Assembly (NCBI GenBank): GCA_017649565.1
Contig: JAGCGO010000019.1
Coordinates: forward strand, 62,001-126,000
Length of the DNA: 64,000 nt
From: Fibrobacter sp.
GTDB taxonomy: Bacteria; Fibrobacterota; Fibrobacteria; Fibrobacterales; Fibrobacteraceae
Direction: 5' to 3'
Shown here: positions 2,218-28,907 of the stretch, piece after piece
Position numbering within the stretch: position 1 is the first letter of the stretch
Layout of the letters: the number at the start of each line of letters is the position of its first letter
Position numbers and translations under genes: made by a program
Notes under the pieces: generated by a model
What the model was told of the DNA's origin: nothing
Seen by the model: the letters and a program-made list of their open reading frames with translations, nothing else
The model's database searches: none

Positions 2218-2318
2218 TTAGAACATAAAATTTGCTTTTTTAGGCAAATTTTACCACTTTTTGGCAAATTACAAAAATTTCGCAAATCTAGAACATGACA
2301 AGCGTGTTCCAGGAACAT
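2218..2318 (-). promoter_or_regulatory. promoter and operator sites of cassette 1
   Basis: GAACAT occurs at 2221-2226, 2291-2296 and 2313-2318, with the inverted half-site GTGTTC at 2304-2309. On the minus strand an extended -10-like TGGTAAAAT lies at 2248-2256, between the first and second sites. The first site is 33 nt from the start codon. Spacings (+70, +83 inverted, +92 and -10 at +27) are identical in front of the cassette 3 regulator, where the half-site is GAATAC. Binding by the TIGR02147 protein is inferred. Confidence 0.6.
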
Positions 2319-2434: not shown

Positions 2435-5400
2435 CTACTTTTTGAACATTACGGACTTTTTGACCGCCCTGCCATTGACTTGCAGCACGCCAATATAACG
2501 ACCACGAGCCACATCCCAGGCATTAACCGTTTTGAAGTGCGTTCCGGCAGCACTGCGGCCGAAGTCGGATGTTTTCAGGGTACGCCCCTGCATATCGAAC
2601 AACATAAACCTTACGTTAGCATCGGTCGGTATCTCGAAGCGGATAGCAATATCGCCATTCTGGAACGTAGCGCCGAAAGAACTACCATGCACAAGCACTT
2701 CGTTACGGACTTGCAACGGCGAATCAAACTCTATTTCCGCCTTGGCGGGAGCACTCCAAATAGTATCGGACAAATACAGCATTCCCACCCGGTAACTGAT
2801 TTCGTATGTTCCGGACGCATCCTTGATCTTTTCCAAGGAATCTAGCAAGGATATGCTCGCAGAATCCAGTTTGAGAATCTTTGTTGCACTAGAGTCCATT
2901 ACATAGGCATCATCCAGCAGGCTCTTGCGCACATTCTTTACAAGCGACTTGCCATCTCCAAACGTCAATGACTTGTTTTCTACATAGGGAGCATTCGGCA
3001 CACCGCGGAGCATCGGGTAAGCCTCGCTCTCCTCTATGTTCCACACCGACTTGAAATTGAATTTGGAATATGACTTTTTCAGGAGCATCTTGTCATATGA
3101 AAGGCCCCCTTCCCCTGCCAAGGTGTCAATGCAGTTTTCGGCAAGATAGTAGAATTCATCCGAAGGCTGCGAAATCTTCGGCAATCCGACGCAATAGCGC
3201 ACATTGCTATCAATAACTGCGCCCATAGCGAAACCCCTGACCGTGGTATTGTTGCCATTGGTCGCAATGAAGCCCGAATTTTCCTTGCTTCTGCCTTGCA
3301 GGTAAACATTGCCCACCGAATAGCAGTCTTCGATTGCAAGCTGGTTAATCTCGACAAAGCTCGCCCTTCCATAGACATCGCCCGTAGAATAGGATTGCTT
3401 GATTGTCCCGTAATTGATTCCCGCAAAGCCGGCGGCCCCGTCCACATTTCCCGTCGCAAACGAGCGCTCGATTACGGCCTCGTTCCTGCCGACAAAACCT
3501 CCGGAATAGCCCGCCATGGACTTGACATTAGCCGTAGCGTAGCTATTGGACACCTTCACCGTGTTATACCCGATCAGTCCGCCCACAAAAAGGCTGCCCG
3601 TCAAATCGACAGACGCATGGGCGCTATCTATATCCTTGCCGTATGCGCCACCTATCAGGCCACCCACATAAGCAGCACCCGGAGCGTCAATAGTTCCGGT
3701 CGCCGTAGAACCCGAGACCTTTCCGCTATCAATCGCAACGACGCCACCTACGCCGTCGAACCCGATAGACACATACTGATACAATCCCTCATAATACGAG
3801 ACTTCCCCCGCTCTGCGACCCGCATAATGAGCATCCACCGTGGCAGAACTTCCGCTGACACGTCCGGAACTTCTGTTGAGCCCCGCAATGCCACCCATGG
3901 AACCGCTTTCGGCAACCACATTCGCCGTCACAGTGGCCTTGTCGATAAGTCCGCCATTCACCAGCGCGACACCGCCAAAGCTACTCATGGTTCCACTGAC
4001 ATCCACCTTCGCCTTGGTTATTTTGCCATCGTTGACAAGGGCCATGCCAGCAAAAGAGCTTTCTCCGTTGAGTTCGCCCTTAAACGAACAGTTCTCGATA
4101 GAGCCCCTATTGTAGAAGGCAATCCCGGCGCTGCTATACGTAGAGTCAAAGGTCGCCTCCACATGGACGTTCTTGATGACGCCGTAGTTCGTCCCGACAA
4201 CGCCACCCGCGCTCATGCCCGCGACGGTATAATTCTTGAACGTGAGATTATCTATCACGCCAGACGGCGCCAGCGTATCGATGAATCCAATAGGAGAACC
4301 ATGACCACCATACATCAGAGTGAGATTATCTATGCTGAACCCGTTACCGTAGAACTTTCCGGAGAAGGGCTCCGTATCCTGTTCGCCATAATCCCCGAAC
4401 AGGCGCCCAAAATACTCTATTTCCCCAATAGGCTTGAATCCCTGTGCGGCATTCCATTCAAGGACCTCGGTCGCAGACGCAGAGGCATCGATATCGTTAG
4501 CGAGCTCATACACCGCCGACAACTTGTACTTGCCAAATCCGATAGATTTCAAGTCGCCGTATGTCGTGATAAGGAAAGGATCTTCCTTGGTTCCGGACCC
4601 CGCCATCTGCATCATCGTCGTGTCATAATTCAGGTTGGGGCGGATCTTTTCGTTCCTTGTTTCCGACAGATAGTAGGAATTGTGAATCCAAGCAAAGTAA
4701 GGATATGTCGTATCTGGGGCCATTCTCCAGGTCTTTTCGAAATCCCAGCCCTTGTAGGTTTCCTTCTTGACCATCTGCCGCGAATTGCGAAGTTCGCCAG
4801 CGGCGGTAACGTTCACGAACCAGGGAATGCTGTCGTAATACACCGATGTATACGTGGATTTTGTATCATCGCCAGCAATGCCTCCCCACTTGGAATCGCC
4901 ATCAACGTCGCCTGCGCCAAAGGAATTCTTCACGGTCGCACTATTTGACGCACCGACCAGGCCGCCTACATACTTTGCGCCTATCACATGGCTAATCGAA
5001 TAGCAATCTTCTAAAGTCGCCTGGCCCAAGCTGCCGAACAGACCGCCAACGTATTCGTCACCTGCAACGACATCCCTCGATGCACTCCTCACGATAGAGC
5101 CGCTGGTCTTTTTACCGGCAACGCCGCCCACGTAGTCCGTACCGCGGATATCGTACTTCACGTAGATATTTTCAAGCACAGCTCCGTTGTCGACACCGGC
5201 GAGAGCACCGACATAGTTCTTGCCACGAATGACGCCCTTGGTTTCATTTGAGCTGTACGAATAGTTTTCGCCAAAATGAGAAGCCGTATCAAATACAATC
5301 CCCGTCACCTTGGCACCACTTGCCAACGCACGGAACAGGCCCACGGAATCTTCGTCGGGACGGTTGATATTCAAGCCCGCAATAATCTTGTTGCCGCCGA

Positions 5401-8167
5401 TAAACACGCCGCTGAATTCACCAATCGGTTCGAAGCCCTTGCACAAGCTACTATCGGCATTGCAATTTTCCTTGAACGATCTCGTGGCATCGATATTTCC
5501 CATCAACTTGTAATATGCATCCAGGCCGTATTCGTACTTGCCGACATACTTGAGGTCACCGTAATCGTAAATCTTGTAGGGGTTCGTTTCAGTGCCGGCA
5601 CCGGCAAGCACATTTACCGTACCGTCATCGACAAGCGTTCCCGGCAATATCGGGTCCATGCCCTTGAAGTACGGGTAAGAAACGCCTTCCTGGATTTCCC
5701 AGACCGAATCAAAGTCATAGCCACCGTATGTCGACTGTTTCATCATCTCTGCAGTGGTCTTGCCCTTACGCTCAATTCCTGCAACAGTGCGGTCAAAGAA
5801 ACATGTATTGGTATCTAACATTCTGCTACTACCATTCCCGAGAATCCCTTCGGCAGCGGATTCGGGAGCTTTGAGCATACTTGCCGAATAAATACGAAAC
5901 ATATACGGATTTATATCACTAAAGACATACTGATAATTGTAACCGATAACGCCACCGACATCTTCAATGCCCTTGATTACGTTGACAGAGAATACATCGG
6001 TCATCGCAATGTAGCCATCCATATCACCGATAACACCGCCGACATTCTCCGTACCCTTGACCTTTCCTGTCGTCCCGACAAATTCAACATTGCCAGAAAT
6101 AACGGAACCAATCAAGCCTCCCACAGACTGCTCGCCCTGGACATCTCCGTTCAAAGAAACGACATGGCGCACAGTGACATCGCGTGCTTCGCCAATCAAG
6201 GCGCCCACTACCCAGGAGCCTCTCACCTTCACGTTTTCAAGTTTCAAGTTCTGGATTACACTCGATTCCACATACCCGAACATACCCGTAAAGTCGCGAT
6301 TCGGCTCATCAATCGTCAAATTCTTGATGGTATGGTTCTTGCCGTCAAAATTTCCATAGAATACATTCACGCTATCACCAATCGGTTCAAATTTCGAACC
6401 CGCCGCATCGATATCCTTTGTCAATTCGTAATTGGCCATTAGAGGATAGGCAACATCTTTTCCAATTTTCTGAAATTCGGCAAAAGTCGAAATTTCAATC
6501 TTGTTGGGAACCGCCATATAGCTCGAAGTACCCCAAACTGTATCGCCATCGTTTACAACTCCGATTCGGTAACCGAAATAGAGCGAATCTCTCTTTAACG
6601 TGGTGCTGCCATCAATAGAATCTACATTATCGCTCAATTTCGCCCAGCCAAGCCATTTACCGACAAGTTCGCCATCCACATCAAAAAGCGAGGCAACCTT
6701 CGGAGTCTCTTGCCATTTCGAGGCCGCTGTCGGAAGCGCAATCGGAATCCGGGATTTCTTCGAGAAGGGATTATTTAACAAGTAGGGGAACGATTTCCCT
6801 TCGTCAATGTCCCAATAGCGAATAAATTTTCCCGTTGGACTAGAGCAATAACCTACATACGGATAATACTCGCACGTGTCCGTACCGTCAATGGCATATT
6901 CATTATAACCTAAGGTATCCCAACCTGCAAATGAGGCGAAAGTCATCATCTTTGCAGTCGTAAGGCCCGTGCCACCCGCGCTCGTATCGAGTCCCGAGAT
7001 TTCAGTGTTCCAATAAGAATTCACGATTGAATCCTTGGCATCTCCGACAAGTCCGCCAACGGAACTATCCCCCTGGACAACATTTGCCGCATAGGAATAA
7101 TACATCGTTCCTCTACCCACAACACCACCAACATACTCTTCGCCACGCACTGTTCCCATCGCAAAAGAGAAGAACACCCCGCCTTCTCCGGCAATGCCGC
7201 CAACATAACGCCTGCCCTCAACAGTACCAAGCGCATAAGACTCGCTTACCGAGCCGCCTTCACCGACAATTCCACCGACATCATAATCAAAGTACCAAAA
7301 ACCAAAATGCATCAGGTCCATTGTAGACAAGCAGTGTACAATTCCACCCTCGGCATATCCTGCAATACCACCGACCTCGTCAACACCATCCTGTCCAGGA
7401 AGTATCGTACCACTTGAACGGGATTGTAAAACATCACCCGTCAAATATCCGACAATACCGCCCGCATCCTTTTTCATAATAATGATATTCACATCGGCTT
7501 CCGCACGTAAAACATTCATGTCCGTTTGACCGACAATGCCGCCAACTCTTTGCGAGCCCTTGATATCGCCCTGAAAAGAAACATCTTCGAGAACGGCTTG
7601 TTCGTTGTAGCGTTTTGTACCTTCTCCAACAATACCGCCGACATAATTCTGTCCTTGGACAAAGCCGTTCGTCACATGCACGTTCTTGATGGAGCCTATC
7701 TGCTTGGCAGCAACGCTCGCCACGAAGTTCGCTTCTGTCACTCGGCCTGTTACATGGATATGATCAAAATTCAAGTTGGTAACGGAACCGCCCAAGTAAG
7801 CGATAAAGGCCACATCCCTTTCGCAGGGGAGCCAAATGGTCAAATTGCTAATGGTATGATTTTGTCCATTGATATTGCCCCAGAATATAATACTGTCCGC
7901 AGCGTCCTTATTTTTTCCGATAGGAATGAAGCCGTTGCAACCATCCTCGTTGCACATCTCGTTCTTAGAGTCCGAAGCATCAATGTCCTTCGTCAAGACG
8001 TAATTTGAAGAATAAAGGTAAGCCCCTTTACCGATGGCCTTCAAGTCTTCGTAGTCTTCAATCTGGAAAGGCTTATTGGCAGAGCCGTCGCCCTTCATGG
8101 TTCCGTTTGCGGCAAACGCTTGTGCCGCAAACAGCATTATCAGTGTCAAAAAATGCAGAGCCTTCAT
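2435..8167 (-). CDS. giant GLUG-repeat secreted surface protein
   Basis: A 1910-residue secreted protein. ATG at 8167 has GGAGG just upstream; a longer TTG/GTG start overlaps the previous gene and would spoil the signal peptide 'MKALHFLTLIMLFAAQAFA'. Four modules each begin with a 'G.G....PF.I..Y.DLK.IG' block and 'Y.L..DIDAS' (near residues 20, 555, 855 and 1190). They are followed by 'F.G..H.I.NLTI' and many GLUG-type 'VGG.VG......S.A.G.V.G' repeats, as in bacterial adhesins predicted to form beta-helices. The last ~100 residues ('FMLFDMQGRTLK ... GRYIGVLQVNG') resemble a type IX-type sorting domain, also seen on the GH9. It lies 14 nt after the FISUMP lipoprotein gene, so it belongs to the cassette 2 operon. 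Probable adhesin; ligand unknown. Confidence 0.9.
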   Translation of the reverse strand: MKALHFLTLIMLFAAQAFAANGTMKGDGSANKPFQIEDYEDLKAIGKGAYLYSSNYVLTKDIDASDSKNEMCNEDGCNGFIPIGKNKDAADSIIFWGNINGQNHTISNLTIWLPCERDVAFIAYLGGSVTNLNFDHIHVTGRVTEANFVASVAAKQIGSIKNVHVTNGFVQGQNYVGGIVGEGTKRYNEQAVLEDVSFQGDIKGSQRVGGIVGQTDMNVLRAEADVNIIIMKKDAGGIVGYLTGDVLQSRSSGTILPGQDGVDEVGGIAGYAEGGIVHCLSTMDLMHFGFWYFDYDVGGIVGEGGSVSESYALGTVEGRRYVGGIAGEGGVFFSFAMGTVRGEEYVGGVVGRGTMYYSYAANVVQGDSSVGGLVGDAKDSIVNSYWNTEISGLDTSAGGTGLTTAKMMTFASFAGWDTLGYNEYAIDGTDTCEYYPYVGYCSSPTGKFIRYWDIDEGKSFPYLLNNPFSKKSRIPIALPTAASKWQETPKVASLFDVDGELVGKWLGWAKLSDNVDSIDGSTTLKRDSLYFGYRIGVVNDGDTVWGTSSYMAVPNKIEISTFAEFQKIGKDVAYPLMANYELTKDIDAAGSKFEPIGDSVNVFYGNFDGKNHTIKNLTIDEPNRDFTGMFGYVESSVIQNLKLENVKVRGSWVVGALIGEARDVTVRHVVSLNGDVQGEQSVGGLIGSVISGNVEFVGTTGKVKGTENVGGVIGDMDGYIAMTDVFSVNVIKGIEDVGGVIGYNYQYVFSDINPYMFRIYSASMLKAPESAAEGILGNGSSRMLDTNTCFFDRTVAGIERKGKTTAEMMKQSTYGGYDFDSVWEIQEGVSYPYFKGMDPILPGTLVDDGTVNVLAGAGTETNPYKIYDYGDLKYVGKYEYGLDAYYKLMGNIDATRSFKENCNADSSLCKGFEPIGEFSGVFIGGNKIIAGLNINRPDEDSVGLFRALASGAKVTGIVFDTASHFGENYSYSSNETKGVIRGKNYVGALAGVDNGAVLENIYVKYDIRGTDYVGGVAGKKTSGSIVRSASRDVVAGDEYVGGLFGSLGQATLEDCYSISHVIGAKYVGGLVGASNSATVKNSFGAGDVDGDSKWGGIAGDDTKSTYTSVYYDSIPWFVNVTAAGELRNSRQMVKKETYKGWDFEKTWRMAPDTTYPYFAWIHNSYYLSETRNEKIRPNLNYDTTMMQMAGSGTKEDPFLITTYGDLKSIGFGKYKLSAVYELANDIDASASATEVLEWNAAQGFKPIGEIEYFGRLFGDYGEQDTEPFSGKFYGNGFSIDNLTLMYGGHGSPIGFIDTLAPSGVIDNLTFKNYTVAGMSAGGVVGTNYGVIKNVHVEATFDSTYSSAGIAFYNRGSIENCSFKGELNGESSFAGMALVNDGKITKAKVDVSGTMSSFGGVALVNGGLIDKATVTANVVAESGSMGGIAGLNRSSGRVSGSSATVDAHYAGRRAGEVSYYEGLYQYVSIGFDGVGGVVAIDSGKVSGSTATGTIDAPGAAYVGGLIGGAYGKDIDSAHASVDLTGSLFVGGLIGYNTVKVSNSYATANVKSMAGYSGGFVGRNEAVIERSFATGNVDGAAGFAGINYGTIKQSYSTGDVYGRASFVEINQLAIEDCYSVGNVYLQGRSKENSGFIATNGNNTTVRGFAMGAVIDSNVRYCVGLPKISQPSDEFYYLAENCIDTLAGEGGLSYDKMLLKKSYSKFNFKSVWNIEESEAYPMLRGVPNAPYVENKSLTFGDGKSLVKNVRKSLLDDAYVMDSSATKILKLDSASISLLDSLEKIKDASGTYEISYRVGMLYLSDTIWSAPAKAEIEFDSPLQVRNEVLVHGSSFGATFQNGDIAIRFEIPTDANVRFMLFDMQGRTLKTSDFGRSAAGTHFKTVNAWDVARGRYIGVLQVNGRAVKKSVMFKK

Positions 8168-8181
8168 TTTTTCCTCCAAAC

Positions 8182-9750
8182 TTAATCCTTGACACAACGG
8201 ATAGAGAATCCGCTATCCTTGAACGACATAGACCTATTGTCCATTTGTCCAAACAAGTTTATGAAATAACAGATTCGCCCGTCATTCACATCAGCCAATT
8301 GATCGGTAAGAGCAAAGAAATCGGCACTGCGCGTATCCGCGTACGTAAAGGGATCTCCGCGGTACACTTCCCCGGCGGGGAAGGCAGAAAAACCGTAAGC
8401 GTCCGTACCGTAATCCCAGAGCCACCCCACCTTCGACATGAGATTGGCACTCCCGCCGGCCGTAGCAATCAGGACGTTCCATTCCGTCGTATCGGGCAAG
8501 TGCCAGCCATTCGGGCAAAGCCCCTGTTCCCGGGTAAACTCGCAATACTTCTCGAAACCGCAGGTCCGCGGTTTTTCCGCATCGTTTGCCAACTTGACCG
8601 AATCGATAGCCGCGGCCCACGTGTAGAAGCGTCCCGCGATTGCACAGTATTCGGGGTTGTCTTCGTAGCACCAGCTGCGTCCCAAAAGGCTTGGAGTGCT
8701 CACGCTGTCCGCATAGTTCAAGTTCTGCGCCATCCATACCTGTTCACCAATCGTTACGACCTTATAAACCTGGCCGTCGCGTTCATCGACAATGGAATCG
8801 TACACAATATCGGGATTCAAGTAGGCTTCCTTAGGCCGGCTCCAGTCTATGTCAAATTCGGTTCTCTCATCCTCTTCGCTTTCCTGCTTTTCTTCGAATT
8901 TCTCCATGTAATTTTCAAATTCCGGCAACTCGTCCACATATCCCCAGCTTTCGATGTTCTTGCGAATCGTATCGATCAGACCTTTTTCCTTGGCGGAAGC
9001 TGCCCAATCCGCAAGCTCGGCCTTTTCGCCGTCTCCCAGGGAACCCTTTTCCGCGAATGTCGAGCTGATCTTGTCCAGACGTTCGGCAACATCTGCAGCC
9101 TCTATAGTCTCGGCCGAATCATCCGGCACCTGCATCAGTACGCTCACAGCCAGGAGAGCCGCATTCCCGTCGCCCTGTTCAAAGATGTTCAAGTTTTCAA
9201 ATTCGCCAACTTCGGACACCACATCAAGCGCGGCAAGCACTTCTTCTTCCGCCTGCTTCTTTGCATCTGCAAAGTCCATGTTCTTTTTAGCGACAAGATT
9301 TCTTATGCGGTCGGATTCCAGATGCGTGAACGCATTGACATTTACCGTTTCACGCTCTTTCAAATTCGTCAGCACTCGCAGCGTCATCTTTTCCGAAGTC
9401 TTTTTACCGGAAACTTCGTTGAAGTAGTAACCCTTCGCCTCGATTTCGGCACACGGCGAAGAGAGCGTAACATCGCCAACGACATAGTCGCCCTTGTCGC
9501 TCTGGACCTCGCCCTCGAAAACCTCGTCAGACAATTCGAGTGTTTTACAGTCCATTCCGCGCACGGTCACGTGGGAGCCCTTGGCGAACGGGCCCTTCTG
9601 CAAGACACCAGCCACTTTCTTGTCCTGTACGGCATAGAGGCCCTCGCTTTCTTCGCAAGTCCCTGCGGTATCCTCTTTTTCGGAACAGGCACAAAGCAGA
9701 GCGAACCCTACAAGCGTCCATGCAAACAGAAATTTTCTAATCATCCTCAT
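8182..9750 (-). CDS. QKGPF lipoprotein with FISUMP domain (cassette 2)
   Basis: A 522-residue lipoprotein with lipobox 'FALLCAC' (residue ~22). The QKGPF domain (~45-175) has 'GVLQKGPFAKGS', 'DKGDY', 'AKGYYFNE' and 'VNVNAFTHLESDR'. It is followed by 'GDGNAALLAVSVLMQ' and 'KAELADWA' (~205-260). The C-terminus (~330-522) is a Fibrobacter major paralogous domain, TIGR02145: 'DGQVYKVVTIGEQVWMAQNLNY', 'GRFYTWAAA', 'CPNGWHLPDTTEWN' and the final 'GFSIRCVKD'. Its start overlaps the regulator gene by 14 nt and has AAGGA upstream; ATG at 9744 is an alternative. Probably an exported surface lipoprotein; the FISUMP domain has no established activity that I know of. Confidence 0.92.
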   Translation of the reverse strand: MRMIRKFLFAWTLVGFALLCACSEKEDTAGTCEESEGLYAVQDKKVAGVLQKGPFAKGSHVTVRGMDCKTLELSDEVFEGEVQSDKGDYVVGDVTLSSPCAEIEAKGYYFNEVSGKKTSEKMTLRVLTNLKERETVNVNAFTHLESDRIRNLVAKKNMDFADAKKQAEEEVLAALDVVSEVGEFENLNIFEQGDGNAALLAVSVLMQVPDDSAETIEAADVAERLDKISSTFAEKGSLGDGEKAELADWAASAKEKGLIDTIRKNIESWGYVDELPEFENYMEKFEEKQESEEDERTEFDIDWSRPKEAYLNPDIVYDSIVDERDGQVYKVVTIGEQVWMAQNLNYADSVSTPSLLGRSWCYEDNPEYCAIAGRFYTWAAAIDSVKLANDAEKPRTCGFEKYCEFTREQGLCPNGWHLPDTTEWNVLIATAGGSANLMSKVGWLWDYGTDAYGFSAFPAGEVYRGDPFTYADTRSADFFALTDQLADVNDGRICYFINLFGQMDNRSMSFKDSGFSIRCVKD

Positions 9751-10615
9751 TGCCTTCCTTGCACAGTGGCCCTGTGTCTTTTTTTAAATTATCCTTTTTC
9801 AAATTTTCCGTCAACGGAAAAAGCTGTATATTTAGCCTACAAATTTTATCCGGGTTTTTATCGGCCGAGACAAGCGACACTATACGCTTGCGGCACTCCG
9901 CCAATTCATCCAGGACCTTCGGGTAACTTTCGGTAGTCACGCCCATGGTCAACCCACTGAAATGCCGTTCCGATACCGGGAGTGTATCAAATGCGGCAAG
10001 CGCAAACTCGCCCATCTGCCGCAATAGCGAATGTACGGCCAATGTCACCACCTTCAACTGTCCTGTCGAAATGGAGCGGTTCGTCTGGCGATAATTATCA
10101 TTCGCATCCTTTTCCAAGAAACCGGCACTTAACAAAAAATGCAGACTCGCGCTCACGTCGGATGCCGATATAGGGAGCCGGCACGCCTTCGCCATTTCGT
10201 GCGGTTTCGCCCCGGGCATCGTCACCGCAAGTTCTCGCACCACCGAATGTTTCCAAGTCTCGAAAAAGGTGTACATGTCGCTTCCGAGGATCTTTACATT
10301 GCGTGCGGAGCTCAAAGCCTGCATTTCTTTGAAGCATTCCTTTTTCAACTGATCCGTCTTGGCATTCTCGTACCGGACCATCAAGACGAAATAATCGTAC
10401 TCAAAATCGACGAGTCCCATGGCGGCGGCCGTCTTTTTCGCCCCCTCTTCCACAAGTCGAGTCTTGCCGTCGCAAACCAGTTTCAAATACGAACCCGACG
10501 CGAACCCGGCAACTTTTGCAAACTCGCGCCACGTAAAAGCCGAGGTGCGCTTGCGTTCGCGGTAGTAATCCAATACGTACTCGCGATAGTCCTTGTATTC
10601 GACGACCGATTTCAT
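9737..10615 (-). CDS. TIGR02147-type regulator (cassette 2)
   Basis: A 292-residue TIGR02147 protein. ATG at 10615 (MKSVVEYKDYREYVLDYY) is chosen over a TTG at 10654 by alignment with the cassette 4 paralogue. The HTH-like segment has second helix 'FASGSYLKLVCDGKTR', identical to cassette 4. A winged-helix-like block follows near 145-190 ('ISASDVSASLHFLLSAGFLEK'), and the end has 'CRLNIQLFPLTENL'. It overlaps the FISUMP lipoprotein gene by 14 nt and heads a three-gene operon ending in the GLUG protein. Upstream lies a cluster of ATAAAACAA-type repeats. Predicted cytoplasmic autoregulator of this operon, perhaps also of the divergent lipoprotein gene at 10916 (inference). Confidence 0.88.
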   Translation of the reverse strand: MKSVVEYKDYREYVLDYYRERKRTSAFTWREFAKVAGFASGSYLKLVCDGKTRLVEEGAKKTAAAMGLVDFEYDYFVLMVRYENAKTDQLKKECFKEMQALSSARNVKILGSDMYTFFETWKHSVVRELAVTMPGAKPHEMAKACRLPISASDVSASLHFLLSAGFLEKDANDNYRQTNRSISTGQLKVVTLAVHSLLRQMGEFALAAFDTLPVSERHFSGLTMGVTTESYPKVLDELAECRKRIVSLVSADKNPDKICRLNIQLFPLTENLKKDNLKKDTGPLCKEGNEDD

Positions 10616-10660: not shown

Positions 10661-10788
10661 ATAAAAAACAAAAATTGCATATATCTCGCGATTTTTGAAT
10701 AATTTTAGGCGTTAATCCAAAAATTGGCATTTTTCATAAAACAAAAAAGGGGGTTATATAAAACAAAATCGCAATTATATAAAACAAA
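10661..10788. promoter_or_regulatory. divergent operator region, ATAAAACAA repeats
   Basis: Half-sites on the plus strand are at 10735-10745 (CATAAAACAAA), 10757-10767 and 10778-10788 (both TATAAAACAAA), spaced 22 and 21 bp. A weaker copy lies at 10661-10673 (C at 10669). A minus-strand -10-like TAAAAT lies at 10702-10707. The region separates the cassette 2 regulator (minus) from the lipoprotein gene at 10916 (plus), so it may serve both. The same 21-bp-spaced pair occurs at 61908-61939. Confidence 0.55.
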
Positions 10789-11629: not shown

Positions 11630-13600
11630 CTACTCGGCTTTAGCGTACTTGTCACAGTCACCATTATAGCCGCCCATAGACACAATATTGAACCGCAGGC
11701 TGTCTATGAGCGGCATCTCGAATGAAAGTCCTCTCACGCTCTTTACCCCCGTTTCACTGTCGAATTCGGACAAGTCCTCGCGCAAAACATATTCCGACAG
11801 GACAAATGACGACCACGGAATTCTCTCCACTCGAACCGTATCAGAGGCAGGCAAAACGGTTTTCACTGAATTGCCGGAATCAACATAGACAGAAATCGTT
11901 TGCGTGGAAGAATACGCGATACAGAGCCCGCCCAGTTCAGAGAAATCATAGGGTCGCGATCGAGGACTGTTCAAATAAACACCATAAGTTAAACCAGAAT
12001 CGCAGACGCCAGACTCACTAACGCAAGTCACCCGAGCGCAAACGCCCTTACACAATTCAACAACCTTCTTGGCTCTGTTTTCGTCATCTACGTCCATTTC
12101 AGACGGTAAGGACAAAGCGAAATCTTCATCAACATCTATATACCACTCAAAAGGTTCGGTTGAAAACGGGAAATACACCTCATCCGAATCCCTCGTTCCA
12201 AACCAAGTCCATCGGGAAAGATCTGCAACAAATTTCCCTTCCGTGCACGTATACTCCATTCCGGTATTTACACCAACTACAGTTCCCCCCTCGACACATT
12301 CTAGGCCCTGGACATCGACATCGGCAACGGTAACATCGCTCAACGTCCACTCTCCTTCCTTGCAAAGATAGCCATCTATAAATTTTTCGGGCATTGCCGA
12401 TGTACATGCACCATATTTCCATTCTATTTCTTTTATGTTGCGCCATGAACCACCATCATAAACAACAAATTGTCCTTGACCTGCATGACGAACTTCACCC
12501 TCTGTTCCATCCGTTAGGCAATATCGAAAACACGGGATAAAATTGGGTGTTGTAGCATCCGCGCCAAACCCAGAAGTGTCCGACAACAGTTCCCACCTTC
12601 CAGACAGGCAGATATACCGCACACTCATATCCCTATAATAATTTATGCTGAGCTCGTTACTATCCGCCGCAATTTCGCCTTCGCGCGATTCCGAACAAGT
12701 CCCGATCCCGTAGTTTTCATACCAGAAATTACGGACATACTTCGCGAAATCGGGAACCGAGCCGAACCCCCATCCATTGATATTTTCCGAAATTCTCAGC
12801 AGAGTCCCGTCAAAATCGGCTTTATTCGCCCAGTCGGCCATTTCCGTCTTCGTTTTCGCGTCATCCCACGAGCCCTTCGAGGCCAGCGCAATCCTGAAAT
12901 TGCCCATACGCTCGGTAAGTCCGGCAACAGATAGATTCCCCTGCATCAGGACGCTTATAGCAAGTAGGGCAGCATTACCGTCTCCCAACTCAAAAATGTT
13001 CAGGTCTTCCGAATTTTCGATATCGCCATCTATGCCGAACACCGACAAGATTTCGCGTTCGGCCTTGGCCTTGGCATCCGCGACGGATTCTCCCTTTTCG
13101 AGAACCAGGTGCATCACGCGTTCGTATTCCAGGTGTGTAAGCAAGTTGATATTCACCTTGTTCCTGTCGCTGAGATCCGTCAACGCGGTGAGAGTCACTG
13201 TACCCGAGGAATTTTCTCCGCTGATTTCGTTACGATAATAACCGGTCGCATCGAGCAAGGCATATTGCGAAGCAAGATTGATGCCTTTGATATCGAAATC
13301 ACCCTTGTCGCTCTTGATTTCTCCTCTAAAGTTCTTGCCCGTCTGATTCAGCGTGAGGCTATCCAGTTCATGCACCATCACCACGGAACCCGTGACAAAC
13401 GGACCCTTCTGCGAAACGCCCGCCACTTCCCAGTCCTTGACTGCATAGATACCGGCATCTTCCGAGGAACCCCCGTCGGTAATCTCAATATGGTCACTCG
13501 AATCCGAACTGGAGCATGCAACCATGAGCACCGTCAAAATACCCAAAACCAAAGTTGTAATCCAATGCACCATTGCCATTTTATGTACACTGTCTTTCAT
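11630..13600 (-). CDS. QKGPF lipoprotein with jelly-roll-like C-terminus (cassette 3)
   Basis: A 656-residue lipoprotein. ATG at 13600 has AAGGAGGA 5-12 nt upstream and lies one base after the regulator stop. Lipobox 'VLMVAC' near residue 29. QKGPF domain (~55-190): 'GVSQKGPFVTGS', 'SDKGDFDIKGINL', 'ATGYYRNE', 'VNINLLTHLEYER'. The second block follows: 'GDGNAALLAISVLMQ', 'TEMADWAN'. Short Cys-containing repeats then appear ('RYICLSGRWELL', 'YLCKEGEWTL', 'YTCTEGKFVADL'). The last ~190 residues ('SRWTWFGTRDSDEVYFPF ... SFEMPLIDSLRFNI') resemble a carbohydrate-binding-type beta-sandwich. That assignment is a guess from the pattern. No FISUMP domain. Confidence 0.88.
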   Translation of the reverse strand: MKDSVHKMAMVHWITTLVLGILTVLMVACSSSDSSDHIEITDGGSSEDAGIYAVKDWEVAGVSQKGPFVTGSVVMVHELDSLTLNQTGKNFRGEIKSDKGDFDIKGINLASQYALLDATGYYRNEISGENSSGTVTLTALTDLSDRNKVNINLLTHLEYERVMHLVLEKGESVADAKAKAEREILSVFGIDGDIENSEDLNIFELGDGNAALLAISVLMQGNLSVAGLTERMGNFRIALASKGSWDDAKTKTEMADWANKADFDGTLLRISENINGWGFGSVPDFAKYVRNFWYENYGIGTCSESREGEIAADSNELSINYYRDMSVRYICLSGRWELLSDTSGFGADATTPNFIPCFRYCLTDGTEGEVRHAGQGQFVVYDGGSWRNIKEIEWKYGACTSAMPEKFIDGYLCKEGEWTLSDVTVADVDVQGLECVEGGTVVGVNTGMEYTCTEGKFVADLSRWTWFGTRDSDEVYFPFSTEPFEWYIDVDEDFALSLPSEMDVDDENRAKKVVELCKGVCARVTCVSESGVCDSGLTYGVYLNSPRSRPYDFSELGGLCIAYSSTQTISVYVDSGNSVKTVLPASDTVRVERIPWSSFVLSEYVLREDLSEFDSETGVKSVRGLSFEMPLIDSLRFNIVSMGGYNGDCDKYAKAE

Positions 13601-13601
13601 T

Positions 13602-14447
13602 TTATTCCTCCTTAACGGATCCAAATTCATTTTTTAAATTCTCGCTCATTGGGAACAATTGCAAGTTCAATCGGTATACCCGCTCCGCATCATCAATTTC
13701 TGTCGCAATCGCCACAACGCGGCGGCGACATTCTGCCAATTCCTTTCTAATGCGTTCATAAGCATCGCGCGTAAGCCCCAAAATAAGGCCTGACATATCA
13801 CGTTCCGAAAGAGGCAAGTCAACAGCCTTTACCGCAAGCTCGCCCATCTGCCGTTGCATTTCGCGAGCCGCTACAGGAACCGCATCCACGGAACCCATCG
13901 ACACGGACTTGTCCGTCTGATGATAGTTACCGTTCTTATCCCTCTTCAAGAGGTTCATCTTCACCAAAAAATCGAGCGTTTCGGAAACTTCCGCCGCAGT
14001 AATGTGCTGTTTGCAGGCGCGAGCCATCTCAAGCGGCTTCGCGCCGGGCATGTGCGGAGCCAATTCGCGCAGCAGCGGGTTCTTCCACGACTTGAAATAG
14101 TCAAATTCCTCGCTCCCGAGCACGTGCACCTTGTGTGCATGCGCCAAGGCACAGCGTTCTTCGAATGCGGCTCGTCTCGCCTTATCGCTCTTGGCGTGCG
14201 CATACGAGACCATCAACACAAAGTAAGTATTCTCGAAACCCGCAAGCCCCATGGCATTCGCTACAGAGCCCGCAACGTTGACACTCAAGTTCTTTTTCCC
14301 CTCGCAGACATATTTCAGATAAACTGGCGACGAGAACCCGGCATCATGCGCAAACTGCCGCCAGGTAAAAGCCGAGCAGCGCTTGCGTTCATCGTAGTAG
14401 TCCTGAATGAACTTGCGGTAGTCCGTATATTCGATGATGTCCTTCAT
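13602..14447 (-). CDS. TIGR02147-type regulator (cassette 3)
   Basis: A 281-residue TIGR02147 protein, a close paralogue of the cassette 1 regulator. ATG at 14447 (MKDIIEYTDYRKFIQDYY) is preferred to a GTG two codons upstream. The HTH-like segment reads 'FSSPVYLKYVCEGKKN' where cassette 1 has 'FSSDVYLKYV': one residue differs in the putative recognition helix. Winged-helix-like block 'ITAAEVSETLDFLVKMNLLKR' near 145-180; end motif 'YRLNLQLFPMSENL'. The stop is one base before the lipoprotein ATG, and that gene's ribosome site lies inside the regulator's last codons, so translation is likely coupled. Probable operators lie at 14478-14577. Confidence 0.88.
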   Translation of the reverse strand: MKDIIEYTDYRKFIQDYYDERKRCSAFTWRQFAHDAGFSSPVYLKYVCEGKKNLSVNVAGSVANAMGLAGFENTYFVLMVSYAHAKSDKARRAAFEERCALAHAHKVHVLGSEEFDYFKSWKNPLLRELAPHMPGAKPLEMARACKQHITAAEVSETLDFLVKMNLLKRDKNGNYHQTDKSVSMGSVDAVPVAAREMQRQMGELAVKAVDLPLSERDMSGLILGLTRDAYERIRKELAECRRRVVAIATEIDDAERVYRLNLQLFPMSENLKNEFGSVKEE

Positions 14448-14477
14448 ACGCACAAATATATATCCTCAAGACAAAAA

Positions 14478-14577
14478 TAGAATACAAATTTCGCTTTTTC
14501 GCACAGATTTTACACATTCGCGTATTATACAAAAAATTTCAGCAATTCAGAATACAAAACCGGTATTCCAAGAATAC
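14478..14577 (-). promoter_or_regulatory. promoter and operator sites of cassette 3
   Basis: GAATAC occurs at 14480-14485, 14550-14555 and 14572-14577, with the exact inverted half-site GTATTC at 14563-14568. A minus-strand TGTAAAAT (-10-like) covers 14507-14514. Offsets (70, 83 inverted, 92 and -10 at 27) and the 33-nt distance to the start codon match the cassette 1 region base for base, while the half-site differs (GAACAT there). Confidence 0.62.
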
Positions 14578-14625: not shown

Positions 14626-16485
14626 TTAGTTTTTCACGCAGCGGACTCGAGCACTTTCTCTCGGTTCTTCAAGCGCAGAGTCAAATCCCAAAAAGATTCT
14701 AAAAGTTTTGTTATCAAATTCCAAGTTGCCCAAATAACCACTACGATTAAATCCACCCCAAAAACCTTCATTATAAGCAAACGGAGCATTATCATAATAC
14801 ATCTTCAATGTATCTACTTGCGCCTCGATATTTACGTGGAATGATTGATGTGTGTACGTGTGATAATAGGCCATACCGTCTTCCATCGGCAAAAGATTGA
14901 AATCAAGCCTGTCGTAGTGCACACCAGCACCATCCCTCCAGTTTTCATTAAGCAAATTAAGAACACCACCGGCATAAGCGACCAAGGCATTCCAGTCCTT
15001 AACACTAGAGATATGCCAACCATCCGGACAGATTCCTTGATGCACCACGTCAATCACACCATCTTCAACAGGCTCTGTCATGTATTTTGGGTCTATCTGC
15101 ATGGCAGCCGTCCAACTATAAATTCCTTTTTGTTTAACCTTTAACATCATACGGGTTTCACTTACTTCGTAGTTGAGGTCTTCCGCCATCCATTCATATC
15201 TTTTCCCGCCAATCTCAAAACTTACCGTTTTATACACATTACCATCTCGCGGATCTATCATAGTGCCCGATTCATGGTCAATCTTCATTTTGAGAGAATC
15301 TACGTATCCTGTCCTCTTTACTTCCCAACTAGAACCATTGCAAAGAAGATAACCGGACTGCAGAACTATCATTTGATTGGAGGAATTATCGTAAGCAATA
15401 ATAGGTTTATGGAATTCCCTGGACTCGCCCCAAAGATCTTCAGTACAAAGTTCAACTCCCATATAGTTCAAAAATAAACGCTTACTAAATTCGTATTTCT
15501 TTTTCATAACCATAAGTTCCTCGTACGAGCCCGGATCTTTGCGATCTTTTTTTCTCATGTCGGATTCATCTATATCTTCCATATGACTGTACTCACCAGT
15601 AATGCGATAAGCCTGAGTCGCAAGGTCTTGCATAATGGAATCGCTGAGAACACCGTCATCCGCAAAGTCATTGGCAAATGCATCAATATAAGCCTGTAAC
15701 TTGGAACAATCTATATTTTCCAAGAGTATCTCAGGCCCCCATTCATCGCTTGTGCCATCCCAAAATTCCCACGAGCTACTTTCATCCAGCAGAAGACTGA
15801 TGTTGAAAAGTGTTCTATCGGCATCAGAAGTATTAAATATGTTCAAATCTTCAGAAGAACTCACATCGACATCCACCCCGAACGCATTCATAACTTCTGT
15901 GGAAGCCTGTCTTTTCGCTTCAACAAAGTTTTTGCCGGATTTGATCAAGTTCAACACACGTTTGTATTCAAAATGAGTCAAGAGATTGATGTTTACTGTT
16001 TCGCGCTTTCGCAGGTCAGAGACGGCGTCCAGACGCATGGGGCATTCAGAGAAACGTTTTTCTTCTTCAGATCTATTATCATCATCGAAATACACTTCCC
16101 CATCGTGTATATAATAGCCCTCTGCAGAAAGTAGTACGTACTGGCTTACTAGATCAAGACTATCAAAATTGAAATCACCCTTATCATTAATGGTCACCGT
16201 AGTGTATTCTCTGCCGGTGGGTTCAAGGTTGCCCTCTGCCGACGTTTCACGAAGAACCACTTCGGAACCCTTTACGAGCGGGCCTTTCTGCGCCGCGCCC
16301 GAAATCTTTTTGTTCGCAATCGCGACGATGCCTTCGGCCTCTTCGCTGGTTCCGGCAGACCCGCCGATCTCGGAACAACCACTGAACATCGCTCCCATCG
16401 CAAGAGCCAATGCAATTCCAGTTTTCGCCATCATCTTTTTTTCCGGATGGATGGCATTTCTTGTCTCATCATAATTCTCAATCAT
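14626..16485 (-). CDS. QKGPF lipoprotein with FISUMP domain (cassette 4)
   Basis: A 619-residue lipoprotein. ATG at 16485 has AAGGAGA upstream and overlaps the regulator stop as ATGA. Lipobox 'AMFSGC' (residue ~37) follows an unusually long n-region; MM at residues 18-19 is the alternative start but lacks a ribosome site. QKGPF domain (~55-210): 'GAAQKGPLVKGS' (Leu replaces the usual Phe), 'NDKGDFNFDSLDL', 'AEGYYI', 'VNINLLTHFEYKR'. The C-terminus (~400-619) is a divergent FISUMP/TIGR02145 domain: 'DPRDGNVYKTVSF', 'WMAEDLNYE', 'GIYSWTAAM', 'CPDGWHISSVKDWNALV', ending 'ARVRCVKN'. Surface lipoprotein of unknown function. Confidence 0.9.
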   Translation of the reverse strand: MIENYDETRNAIHPEKKMMAKTGIALALAMGAMFSGCSEIGGSAGTSEEAEGIVAIANKKISGAAQKGPLVKGSEVVLRETSAEGNLEPTGREYTTVTINDKGDFNFDSLDLVSQYVLLSAEGYYIHDGEVYFDDDNRSEEEKRFSECPMRLDAVSDLRKRETVNINLLTHFEYKRVLNLIKSGKNFVEAKRQASTEVMNAFGVDVDVSSSEDLNIFNTSDADRTLFNISLLLDESSSWEFWDGTSDEWGPEILLENIDCSKLQAYIDAFANDFADDGVLSDSIMQDLATQAYRITGEYSHMEDIDESDMRKKDRKDPGSYEELMVMKKKYEFSKRLFLNYMGVELCTEDLWGESREFHKPIIAYDNSSNQMIVLQSGYLLCNGSSWEVKRTGYVDSLKMKIDHESGTMIDPRDGNVYKTVSFEIGGKRYEWMAEDLNYEVSETRMMLKVKQKGIYSWTAAMQIDPKYMTEPVEDGVIDVVHQGICPDGWHISSVKDWNALVAYAGGVLNLLNENWRDGAGVHYDRLDFNLLPMEDGMAYYHTYTHQSFHVNIEAQVDTLKMYYDNAPFAYNEGFWGGFNRSGYLGNLEFDNKTFRIFLGFDSALEEPRESARVRCVKN

Positions 16486-17330
16486 CTTTTCTCTCCTTTC
16501 CCATTATTAAATTTCAAGTTCTCGGTAAGTGGGAAAAGCTGCATATTCAAACGGCAAACTTTCTCCACGTCTTTGTCAGCAGAAACAATCGACACAATTC
16601 GTTTGCGGCACTCCGTGAGTTCTTCGACGACCTTTTCGTAGCTTGCGGCGGTCATTCCCATAAAGATGCCGCTAAAATGGCGTTCCGAAATCGGCAACTT
16701 GTCAAAAGCCTCGAGCGCAAACTCGCCCATCTGGCGTAACAGCGAATGCACCGCCACCGAAACGGCCTTTAAGCGCCCCGTAGTCAGCGAACGGTTCGTC
16801 TGATGGTAGGCGCCCTTTACATCCATCGTCAGGAAACCTGAATTCACAAGGAACTTGAGGCTGCTGCTGACATCGGCGGCCGAAATCGGGAGACGGCAAA
16901 CCTTCGCAATCTCGTGCGGTTTCGCCCCCGGCATTGCCACAGCCAATTCGCGGACAACGGAGTGCTTCCACGTCTCGTAAAAAGTGTACAGTTCGCTCCC
17001 GAGGATCTTCACATTGTGCGCCGAGCTCAGCGCCTCCATTTCCTCGAAGCACTTTTTCTTTTCACGATCCGTCTTCGCACTTTCGTAGCGGACCATCAAA
17101 ACAAAGTAGTCGTACTCAAAGCCCAACAACCCCATGGCAACAGCGGTTTTCTTCGCACCTTCTTCACGAAGGCGCGTCTTGCCATCACAAACAAGCTTCA
17201 AGTACGACCCCGACGCGAATCCGGCAATCTTTGCAAACTCGCGCCATGTAAACGCCGAAGTGCGTTTGCGCTCGCGGTAGTAGTCAAGTACGTACTCGCG
17301 ATAATCTTTATATTCAATAACCGATTTCAT
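16482..17330 (-). CDS. TIGR02147-type regulator (cassette 4)
   Basis: A 282-residue TIGR02147 protein, close paralogue of the cassette 2 regulator (MKSVIEYKDYREYVLDYYRERKR). A preceding in-frame ATG at 17333 would add one Met. The putative recognition segment 'FASGSYLKLVCDGKTR' is identical to cassette 2. Winged-helix-like 'ISAADVSSSLKFLVNSGFL' near 145-185; end motif 'CRLNMQLFPLTENL'. The stop overlaps the lipoprotein start by 4 nt (ATGA). ATAAAACAAG-type repeats lie at 17380-17478, and a palindrome array starts at 17529, further upstream. Confidence 0.88.
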   Translation of the reverse strand: MKSVIEYKDYREYVLDYYRERKRTSAFTWREFAKIAGFASGSYLKLVCDGKTRLREEGAKKTAVAMGLLGFEYDYFVLMVRYESAKTDREKKKCFEEMEALSSAHNVKILGSELYTFYETWKHSVVRELAVAMPGAKPHEIAKVCRLPISAADVSSSLKFLVNSGFLTMDVKGAYHQTNRSLTTGRLKAVSVAVHSLLRQMGEFALEAFDKLPISERHFSGIFMGMTAASYEKVVEELTECRKRIVSIVSADKDVEKVCRLNMQLFPLTENLKFNNGKGEKR

Positions 17331-17379
17331 CATGACAGTAAATTAGGTTATTCTCATCCAAGGTGCAACGAAATTCAAA

Positions 17380-17478
17380 AAACAAATATTGCGTTTTTAG
17401 CCAAATTTAGGCATTTTATAAAATGAAATAAAAAAATTTTAAATCTATAAAACAAGCGCCATAATTCCATAGAACAAG
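17380..17478 (-). promoter_or_regulatory. operator-like repeats of cassette 4
   Basis: Half-sites AAACAA at 17380-17385 and 17450-17455 (within TATAAAACAAG, 17446-17456), and GAACAA at 17472-17477 (within CATAGAACAAG). Offsets of 70 and 22 bp match cassettes 1 and 3. A minus-strand TAAATT preceded by GCC (17404-17409) is a possible -10; cassette 2 has a similar GCCTAAAAT. Confidence 0.5.
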
Positions 17479-24083: not shown

Positions 24084-25547
24084 TTATTCAATGATGGTCA
24101 TTTTACCTTCATCGAGGCCCTTGACCGCATAGAACACCTTGGTTCCGTCCGGCTTCAGGACCACCGCGATACCGGCAAGATAGTTCAGCCAGTGGTCTTC
24201 CGGAGACTCATAGTACCTCAAGTCGATTCGTCCTTCGGAAACATACGACACAAGAGGTATGAGCATAATGTCGTGCGTAATGAACACGCCTATCGTCTTT
24301 CCGGAATTTTCCAGCGCCGGGATAATATGATCTTCCAGCAATTCGGAGCTTCTGCTCTTCAAATCGTAGAACGCATCGTCGTAGCCGCCTTCGAAAGCCC
24401 ATCTCGTCGTGACACCCCTGCCATCGTCATTTTCGTTATAGAGGGCCATGTAGTAGGACATCTGGTTCCTTACGAACCAGCCCTCGTTCAATACTTTTAT
24501 AGTATCGCCAAGCGTATCGGCGTCACCACGGCCTATGGCAATATTATTGTACGTCTGGTGAGTACGGATATATTCCGAACCTGCATAATAGATTTCCGGG
24601 CCACCCACCAACTTAGCCCCGAGCTGTTGGGACTGCAGCCTTCCGTTATCCGTCAGCGGAGTTTCCTTGGTAATCGTGTTCACGCGTTCGGCATGGCGCA
24701 ACATCACCACCAACTTTTCACCTTCGGCGAGCCCCGCAAAGACCTGTTCGACCGGGGTAAAGTCACTGACCGCAGATTGAGTGACATACTGGCTGTTAAT
24801 GACCCCCATCTTCTCCGCTTCAGTAGCTAAGCGCCAAAGGAGCGTTCCGTTGTCGCAATAGAAATAACGATCTTCGCCATTAATGGACGCCACCTTGAGT
24901 TCGCCCTTAGTCGAGTCGTTACACGCGCCCAAGTAATCCTCCGGTCCATGGACAACCACGCTATCCACGACATGGATACTGTCAATCACGTTAACGCTAT
25001 CCGTAATACGCAGGCTATCGATGATATTCAAGCTGTCCACGATATAGATACTATCAATGACGTTCAAGCGAGTCGTCACGCGAAGGCTATCAATATAGCG
25101 CACGACATCCTTATAGCGGACGCTATCGATAATGTTCAAGCTATCGACAAAACGCACGCTATCTTTAATACGCAAACTGTCAAGGTAGCGCGTCACTTCC
25201 CTATACTGGATGCTATCAACAATATGTAAGCTATCGATAATACGCACGCTATCCGTAATGCGCAAACTATCCAGATAACGAGTGACATCCCTATAACGGA
25301 TGCTATCAATAATATTCAAGCTATCCTTAACACGCACGCTATCTTTAATACGCAAACTATCGATATAACGAATGCTGTCCATCAGATTCACACTATCCCG
25401 AATCACGACCGAATCGGAACCAGCAGAACCAGAAGCAACCGCATCCGCGTCTTCCAGGTTTACGGAAACAGTAGCACTGTCATCGCAGGCAGCAAAGAAA
25501 AAGACAAGCAGAGCGCTTGTCAGCAATTTTAGGGCGTTTGATTTCAT
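24084..25547 (-). CDS. hexapeptide-stalk lipoprotein with histidine phosphatase domain
   Basis: A 487-residue lipoprotein with lipobox 'FFFAAC' (residue ~21). Residues ~48-200 are about 25 tandem hexapeptides of the form DS[VIL]x[VI]x (for example DSLRIK, DSLNII, DSIRYR). A short domain follows ('YLGACNDSTKGEL ... RYFYCDNGTLLWRLA'), then a histidine phosphatase domain (~270-487). The catalytic signature 'MLRHAER' is followed by 'YIRTHQT' and the second catalytic His in 'FITHDIMLIPLV', so the domain looks active. Substrate unknown; anchored outside the cytoplasm. A conserved upstream element (25589-25606) is shared with the paralogue at 27065. It is the last of the five paralogues and seems to have its own promoter. 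Confidence 0.88.
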   Translation of the reverse strand: MKSNALKLLTSALLVFFFAACDDSATVSVNLEDADAVASGSAGSDSVVIRDSVNLMDSIRYIDSLRIKDSVRVKDSLNIIDSIRYRDVTRYLDSLRITDSVRIIDSLHIVDSIQYREVTRYLDSLRIKDSVRFVDSLNIIDSVRYKDVVRYIDSLRVTTRLNVIDSIYIVDSLNIIDSLRITDSVNVIDSIHVVDSVVVHGPEDYLGACNDSTKGELKVASINGEDRYFYCDNGTLLWRLATEAEKMGVINSQYVTQSAVSDFTPVEQVFAGLAEGEKLVVMLRHAERVNTITKETPLTDNGRLQSQQLGAKLVGGPEIYYAGSEYIRTHQTYNNIAIGRGDADTLGDTIKVLNEGWFVRNQMSYYMALYNENDDGRGVTTRWAFEGGYDDAFYDLKSRSSELLEDHIIPALENSGKTIGVFITHDIMLIPLVSYVSEGRIDLRYYESPEDHWLNYLAGIAVVLKPDGTKVFYAVKGLDEGKMTIIE

Positions 25548-25588
25548 TTTGTGCAGACTCCTTTTTTACCAACACCATTTGTCAGTAA

Positions 25589-25606
25589 GTTTAAGTTGTA
25601 CGCAAA
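25589..25606 (-). promoter_or_regulatory. conserved upstream element, copy 1
   Basis: On the minus strand TTTGCGTACAACTTAAAC, 42 nt before the start of the 24084-25547 gene. It matches 17 of 18 positions with 28825-28842, 39 nt before the 27065-28786 paralogue. Probably a promoter or regulator site. I see no clear -10. Confidence 0.5.
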
Positions 25607-25806
25607 ATATATTCTAGTCAAAGCACAAAGTCAATCTTTATCTGCAAAGCAGTTCTACAAATAAGGTAAAATTTTTATAAACAATTTATTTGTAATACAC
25701 CATCTGTAATTTGTACAGATTATTTAATTTACAAATAAAAAAAAATGCGCCGACCCGGAGGCCAAGCGCAATACAAAAGGGCGATCCGACAAGCGGATTC
25801 AAAGAT

Positions 25807-25956
25807 TTAGGACTTAGGATTAACTTCGGCGCCGGGGGCGTAGCCGAGTTCGTCGCAATAATCTCCATCAGTGCATTCATTACTGCCACTCAGCAACGGA
25901 GCCTGATGCTTGAGATCCAACACTTCCATTTCCGGAGCTTTGTATTCTTTTTTCAT
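25807..25956 (-). CDS. 49-residue peptide, possibly exported or modified
   Basis: A short ORF from ATG 25956 to TAA 25807, with GGAGGGAAAC directly upstream and 15 nt after the stop of the secreted-protein gene 25972-26940, so the two are probably co-transcribed. The start is MKKEYKAPEMEVLDLKHQAP followed by LLSGS, then an acidic Cys-containing tail (NECTDGDYC, DELGYAPGAEV). From memory, short Bacteroidota and Fibrobacter peptides share an 'MKK-x-Y-x-x-P-E-x-E-V' leader and a small-residue break near residue 22; this was not checked. It could be a secreted peptide or a RiPP-type precursor, but no modification enzyme is nearby. Confidence 0.68.
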   Translation of the reverse strand: MKKEYKAPEMEVLDLKHQAPLLSGSNECTDGDYCDELGYAPGAEVNPKS

Positions 25957-25971
25957 GTTTCCCTCCAAAAA

Positions 25972-26940: not shown

Positions 26941-27064
26941 TTTTTCACCCTTCTTGTTACCCTTGAAAATATAAAATCTGCTTACAATTTTCAATAGGAA
27001 AATAAAAAACAGGGCCCGTTTAGGCCCCATTTTCTTCATTTATTCGAATTTCAGCCAAGAAAAA

Positions 27065-28786: not shown

Positions 28787-28824
28787 TTGGCACATCTTCG
28801 TCGCCACCGCGACTAGGTAATTTT

Positions 28825-28842
28825 GTTTAAGTTGTGCGCAAA
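28825..28842 (-). promoter_or_regulatory. conserved upstream element, copy 2
   Basis: On the minus strand TTTGCGCACAACTTAAAC, 39 nt before the start codon of the 27065-28786 gene. It is the counterpart of 25589-25606, with one mismatch. Confidence 0.5.
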
Positions 28843-28907
28843 TTTACTTTTTTCTTATAATTATTTCAAGGCCGTTTTTCTGTTTAGTTTAATTTACTTT
28901 GTATTAA

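Follow-up and report, generated by a model that had tools for sequence, protein, structure and literature searches.

The 64-kb stretch of Fibrobacter DNA analysed here (the window) holds two regulator–lipoprotein cassettes that raise a simple question: ahead of cassettes 1 and 3 the repeated sequence words have changed, but the geometry in which they are set has not. Both cassettes lie on the minus strand and pair a regulator of the TIGR02147 family (cassette 1, 1316–2188, carrying H30 and D41, NCBIfam TIGR02147 330.9 bits, with a predicted N-terminal lambda-repressor-like fold; cassette 3, 13602–14447, carrying R30 and P41, 320.3 bits, aligned to its counterpart in cassette 1) with a partner lipoprotein gene (490–1335, an open reading frame with a lipobox read from the sequence and coupled to its regulator as is typical of the family; 11630–13630, an open reading frame). 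In cassette 1, the proximal word ATGTTC (2221–2226, minus) covers the −35 position, a distal ATGTTC lies 70 bp upstream of it (2291–2296, minus), and beyond this are an inverted copy, GTGTTC (2304–2309, plus), and an outer ATGTTC 22 bp further upstream than the distal word (2313–2318, minus). Cassette 3 carries GTATTC as its proximal (14480–14485), distal (14550–14555) and outer (14572–14577) words, all on the minus strand, with the inverted copy at 14563–14568 (plus).

The original prediction, that these eight words share one layout, proved exact: every word is present at the coordinates it gave, the offsets of 0, +70, +83 (inverted) and +92 are common to both cassettes, and so are the 33 nt from the ATG to the first base of the proximal word. 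In cassette 1 three of the four copies are the exact word, the inverted copy GTGTTC (GAACAC on the coding strand) being an imperfect inverse of GAACAT. It had also staked its case on the words not being commonplace at random spacings. Single words are in fact frequent, with 18–33 copies of each in the window, whereas the 3.45-Mb assembly contains each of the exact inverted pairs, GTATTC-N3-GAATAC and ATGTTC-N3-GAACAT, a single time, in both cases inside a TIGR02147 spacer. A search for the degenerate pair RTRTTC-N63-66-RTRTTC was uninformative (69 matches versus 35 in the control). The spacers of the two cassettes are homologous (53% identity, ungapped, between regulators that are 73–74% identical), so the shared geometry of this pair alone could be inheritance.

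The window holds two further cassettes on the minus strand with the same spacings and a third word, GTTTTAT. Cassette 2 comprises a regulator with a GSYLK helix (9737–10612, matching the TIGR02147 profile) and a partner lipoprotein with a FISUMP domain (8182–9750, TIGR02145 163.3 bits). Its proximal word, GTTTTTTAT, lies at 10661–10669, and its distal element (10736–10785) consists of three GTTTTAT words at 10736–10742, 10758–10764 and 10779–10785, 22 and 21 bp apart, followed in the direction of transcription by a lag of 73. Cassette 4 likewise joins a profile-matched regulator (16482–17330) to a FISUMP-domain lipoprotein (14626–16485, TIGR02145 74.4 bits); its proximal GTTTTTT (17377–17383) is preceded by the distal words GTTTTAT (17447–17453) and GTTCTAT (17469–17475), together spanning 17447–17475, at lags of 70 and 22. 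All four window regulators score 277–331 bits against TIGR02147 (Fsuc_second), above the curated cut-off of 50.

We then compared the spacers before 233 distinct TIGR02147 genes with upstream DNA from Fibrobacter, relatives being drawn from 12 further Fibrobacter assemblies and a genome collection; the source assembly alone has 36 such genes, and Fibrobacter genomes carry about 6 to 45 copies. The geometry claimed for two cassettes turned out to be general. Unrelated paralogs with different words (ATGTTC, GTATTC, GTATCAT, GTTTCAT, GTTGCAT, GTATAGT and others) share one set of spacings, in which a single distal word or an inverted pair of words is separated by about 70–73 bp from one proximal copy, itself at the −35 or immediately upstream of it. 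Read with transcription, the order is distal element, spacer of about 63 bp, single proximal word, promoter and ATG. The distal element is often the reverse complement of the word, five bases and the word; such an inverted pair with a 5-bp gap occurs in 23 of 41 spacers outside the clade of cassettes 1 and 3, and with a 6–7-bp gap in 26 of 31 spacers of that clade, where an additional outer word copy makes a 15-bp palindrome.

Across 55 clusters (<80% identity), a scan for exact repeated 7-mers in which the lags were not specified in advance found 20 at lags 70–73 (about 1.7 in shuffles) and seven at lag 21 (0.6 in shuffles). When proximal words were compared at lags 69–75 with their own distal region, they scored 12.27, as against 8.14 with the distal regions of other paralogs (z = 9.9, 100,000 permutations), and an exact 8-mer was shared by the proximal and distal positions of the same spacer in 28 of 52 cases versus 7% with other paralogs. 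Control lags of 49–55, 59–65 and 79–85 gave z between −0.3 and 1.2; z = 2.6 at lags 89–95 is expected because a third word copy stands at +92. A local-alignment version of the test with fixed proximal and distal regions gave a weak signal because leader lengths differ, and the lag-anchored test was used instead. Since the distal copies are not perfect, a tight scan of the genome for ATGATAC-N-GTATCAT returned zero matches. Before TIGR02147 genes that encode an HAH[LI]K recognition helix, one palindrome close to GTTTACTNGAGTAAAC takes the place of the two-site layout (upstream regions L010, L064, L077, L088, L089, L093, L103, L129, L137 and L141).

What kind of protein might read these words? 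The AlphaFold model of regulator residues 1–105 (pLDDT 94.2) has helices at 10–24, 29–36, 43–49, 56–65 and 70–83, including a helix 2-turn-helix 3 unit. The closest solved folds found by Foldseek are NHTF, lambda cI on DNA, DdrO, SinR and C-proteins, with modest E-values that are all above 0.1 (best 0.13); 6rnz is closest (TMt 0.74, rmsd 2.0) and 1lmb is also near. A Pfam search of the regulators returned zero helix-turn-helix matches and a PDB sequence search no convincing match. By the helical arrangement of this high-confidence model, the N-terminal domain has a predicted lambda-repressor-like (XRE) DNA-binding fold. The C-terminal half is Pfam DUF4423 and models as helices and a small strand hairpin, a winged-helix-like element; neither Pfam nor the model places an RNPP TPR-like peptide-binding domain there.

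The DNA between the two operator positions is itself distinctive. In cassettes 1 and 3 the AT-rich spacer occupies 2227–2290 and 14486–14549, respectively, the former with phased A-tracts and probably curved. Phasing was measured on the set of spacers: their A-tracts recur roughly every 10 bp (z about 12–13.5 versus shuffles), and the A-tract signal at 10 bp is higher in power by a factor of 3.5 than in 294 other AT-rich stretches of the same DNA (p = 5e-31), so that the spacers are probably bent. The lags are spread over 69–75, about half a helical turn, and phasing is therefore not strict.

These observations suggest a model in which the N-terminal domain of the regulator would read a word of 6–7 bases in a bipartite operator, whose distal full site is an inverted word pair, or word repeats 21–22 bp apart, and whose proximal half-site lies 70–73 bp downstream, on the −35 or immediately before it. 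Bound at the distal site, a dimer or tetramer could then reach the proximal half-site by looping the curved A-tract spacer, and the loop would set transcription of the regulator's own regulator–lipoprotein operon, repression being the most likely outcome. Duplicated copies would keep the geometry, while residues 30, 41, 46 and 52 of the helix-turn-helix region and all word copies of a spacer change together, giving several regulator–operator specificity classes per genome. The computation shows the words, their geometry, the curvature signal, the covariation and the success of prediction described below; from these we infer that the adjacent protein binds the words, oligomerises, loops the DNA and represses. 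As a whole, this looping autoregulator with co-evolved words is the explanation we favour, with moderate confidence; that the words are the regulator's operators seems very likely, and looping between the two positions seems fairly probable. The looping anticipated by the original prediction has indirect support, in the 70–73-bp pair, the A-tracts phased at about 10 bp and the pairing of a distal full site with a proximal half-site as in PrgX and RcoLS20.

The same prediction had the sites flanking the promoter, which was not borne out: both operator positions lie upstream of the −10, and the promoter is downstream of the proximal word. The TAAAAT (coding strand) it had noted at +27 is present in both cassettes and is a phased A-tract within the spacer; as a −10 it was dropped in favour of a TATATT-type element seven bases 5′ of the ATG (TAAATT at 2196–2201 in cassette 1 and TATATT at 14455–14460 in cassette 3, both minus). 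The gap from −10 to ATG is exactly seven bases in 48 of 51 members of this clade, and only 1 of the 51 has a Shine-Dalgarno-like string, so the regulator messages of the clade look leaderless. The LKYVSE clade differs, with a long leader carrying AGGAGG.

The build of these promoters bears on whether the regulator would repress or activate. In most other clades TTGACT-N17-TATATT follows directly after the proximal word, which starts 35–38 bases before the −10 and just upstream of the TTGACT. Such near-consensus promoters, strong unaided, suggest repression, which we hold to be somewhat the better reading. The same regulators and words could instead work as activators, the protein on the proximal half-site substituting for a −35 by contacting sigma region 4, and the operon becoming switch-like through positive autoregulation. 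This would suit the clade of cassettes 1 and 3, where the word covers the −35 without any TTGAC, its start stands a very constant 25 bases before a TATATT-like −10 (32 of 51 members), and the distance is one helical turn shorter than in the TTGAC-bearing clades; a lambda cI-sigma4 complex is also among the fold matches. Set against the self-sufficient promoters of most clades, we consider activation a tentative and rather unlikely alternative.

If the words are operators of the adjacent regulator, they should follow its helix-turn-helix residues, and they do. The window regulators differ at positions 30 (H/R) and 41 (D/P) and their words at bases 1 and 3, H30/D41 going with ATGTTC and R30/P41 with GTATTC. 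Words were extracted by a register rule, junk words being removed by hand, and among 700 background-corrected residue–base pairs the top three were 30 with base 1, 41 with base 3 and 46 with base 4. The pairing of residue 52 and base 6 came ninth after correction and had the highest raw mutual information among the pairs printed. In the helix-turn-helix alignment residue 30 is at the beginning of helix 2, residue 41 immediately precedes helix 3, residue 46 belongs to helix 3 and residue 52 lies in the loop that follows. R30 goes with G at base 1 in 56 of 57 cases and Q, H, K or P30 with A or T; P41 with A at base 3 in 43 of 43, S, G or C41 mostly with T, D41 with G and A41 with A or G; L or Y46 nearly always with T at base 4, V46 with G and M, T or D46 with C; S or T52 mostly with A at base 6, K52 with C and F52 with G. 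Within the clade of cassettes 1 and 3, base 1 is G in 37 of the 38 spacers that go with R30 and A in all 28 that go with H30 or Q30, and the AVF helix is found with both base-1 letters, which residue 30 separates. We rate a contact between residue 30 and base 1, or its equivalent, as likely.

The signal is centred on the helix-turn-helix. With the remainder of the N-terminal 100 residues controlled for, the partial Mantel correlation between word and helix is 0.399 (0 of 5000 permutations as high); between word and remainder, with the helix controlled for, it is 0.108. None of 2000 random sets of eight other columns reached the helix correlation. Independent contrasts on a tree built without the helix-turn-helix columns, pooled over four traits, gave about 10 changes in the same direction and 0 opposite, with no single trait significant. 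Residue-to-base rules were fixed from the training set before they were scored on 50 genes from later-fetched loci, mostly in unused assemblies and differing from training by >3% over the first 100 residues. Words matched their own prediction at 9.06 of 10, whereas permuted predictions scored 8.25 (z = 9.0, or 5.9 when the GTTT classes are left out), and under a strict criterion, both copies fully as predicted, 17 of 50 succeeded versus 0.7 expected; the rules fail for S41 in VH-type helices. The proposal that words co-evolve with their protein is therefore well supported across the family.

Ordinary recent duplication, with spacing kept by descent and words changed by drift rather than co-evolution, accords with the homology of proteins and spacers but predicts neither the agreement of word copies within a spacer (mean purity 0.96), nor their tracking of helix-turn-helix residues, nor success on held-out words above chance; contradicted on each count, it is very improbable. 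Equally hard to credit is the idea that the words serve another protein, for instance an alternative sigma factor or a recombinase: the proximal word does overlap the −35 in one clade, but the words covary with helix-turn-helix residues of the adjacent gene, most clades carry their own −35/−10, and direct-repeat main copies would delete, not invert, the spacer, for which reason recombination or an invertible promoter was also dropped.

PrgX is controlled by a lipoprotein-derived peptide. On Enterococcus faecalis pCF10 this RNPP-family regulator uses a full site, XBS1, and a half-site, XBS2, in a phase-dependent manner (PMC5552905). The arrangement before TIGR02147 genes resembles it, with a full palindromic distal site and a half-palindrome at the promoter, and PrgX has been proposed to loop DNA as a tetramer with helical-phase dependence (PMC5552905). 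Unlike PrgX, TIGR02147 proteins have DUF4423 in place of an RNPP peptide-binding domain and occur in dozens of paralogous copies, each coupled to its own lipoprotein gene. In RcoLS20 of Bacillus subtilis pLS20, the operators are 75 bp apart with phased A/T tracts, measurement showed a static bend and inserting 5 bp abolished regulation (PMC4207663); here the distance is 69–75 bp and the bend is predicted. RcoLS20 is, however, a single regulator acting on divergent promoters through arrays of CAGTGAAA motifs, whereas TIGR02147 cassettes have a co-directional promoter and many word classes. The features expected of a short loop of the PrgX/RcoLS20 type, two positions some 70–75 bp apart on a spacer predicted to bend, are thus present. 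Restriction-modification C-proteins and lambdoid repressors share the lambda-repressor-like fold, autoregulation and word-specific recognition (here predicted), but not operator arms about 70 bp apart or many paralogous classes per chromosome; we saw no restriction, methylase or phage genes in the cassettes, whose partners are lipoproteins.

The open-access literature that we searched contained no paper on what TIGR02147 proteins do, and regulation of cellulose degradation in Fibrobacter succinogenes has been described as an open question (PMC3079729). For TIGR02147 the analysis predicts a binding site, describes the promoter anatomy and gives a residue-to-base table that can be tested, and the family offers natural material on how duplicated regulators split their targets with operator geometry unchanged. 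A private word for each regulator would be too strong a claim: by eye, the source genome has roughly 14 words over about 28 main-clade genes, six paralogs sharing GTATCA and two sharing ATGTTC, so insulation is by class and not by gene.

Nearly all main-clade regulators are followed by a lipoprotein gene, which in most cases overlaps the regulator gene or lies no more than about 15 bases from it. One lipoprotein gene that stands alone, with no TIGR02147 gene beside it (L232; G000:C32:64567-64642, minus), has the GTATCAT two-site AT-rich layout and a TATATT promoter; a regulator can therefore probably act in trans in at least one class. It is conceivable, though improbable, that the pairs form one network of specificity classes choosing which surface lipoproteins are displayed, with cross-regulation within a class and feedback from the partner, for example if the DUF4423 domain senses a fragment of the partner's signal peptide or its export state. 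Several partners (L005, L012, L017, L026 and L107) carry a motif like GxTEEPN, TTEPN, SSEDPN or DEQPN some 10–20 residues past the lipobox cysteine, perhaps an export or sorting signal. Elsewhere in the window, upstream of cassette 1, 2435–8197 encodes a protein of 1920 residues with numerous repeats of the VGGIVG type (by eye, GLUG-like), and 24084–30215 contains three neighbouring genes for lipoprotein-like proteins in which many DSxxIxDS repeats precede a histidine-phosphatase-like RHAER segment.
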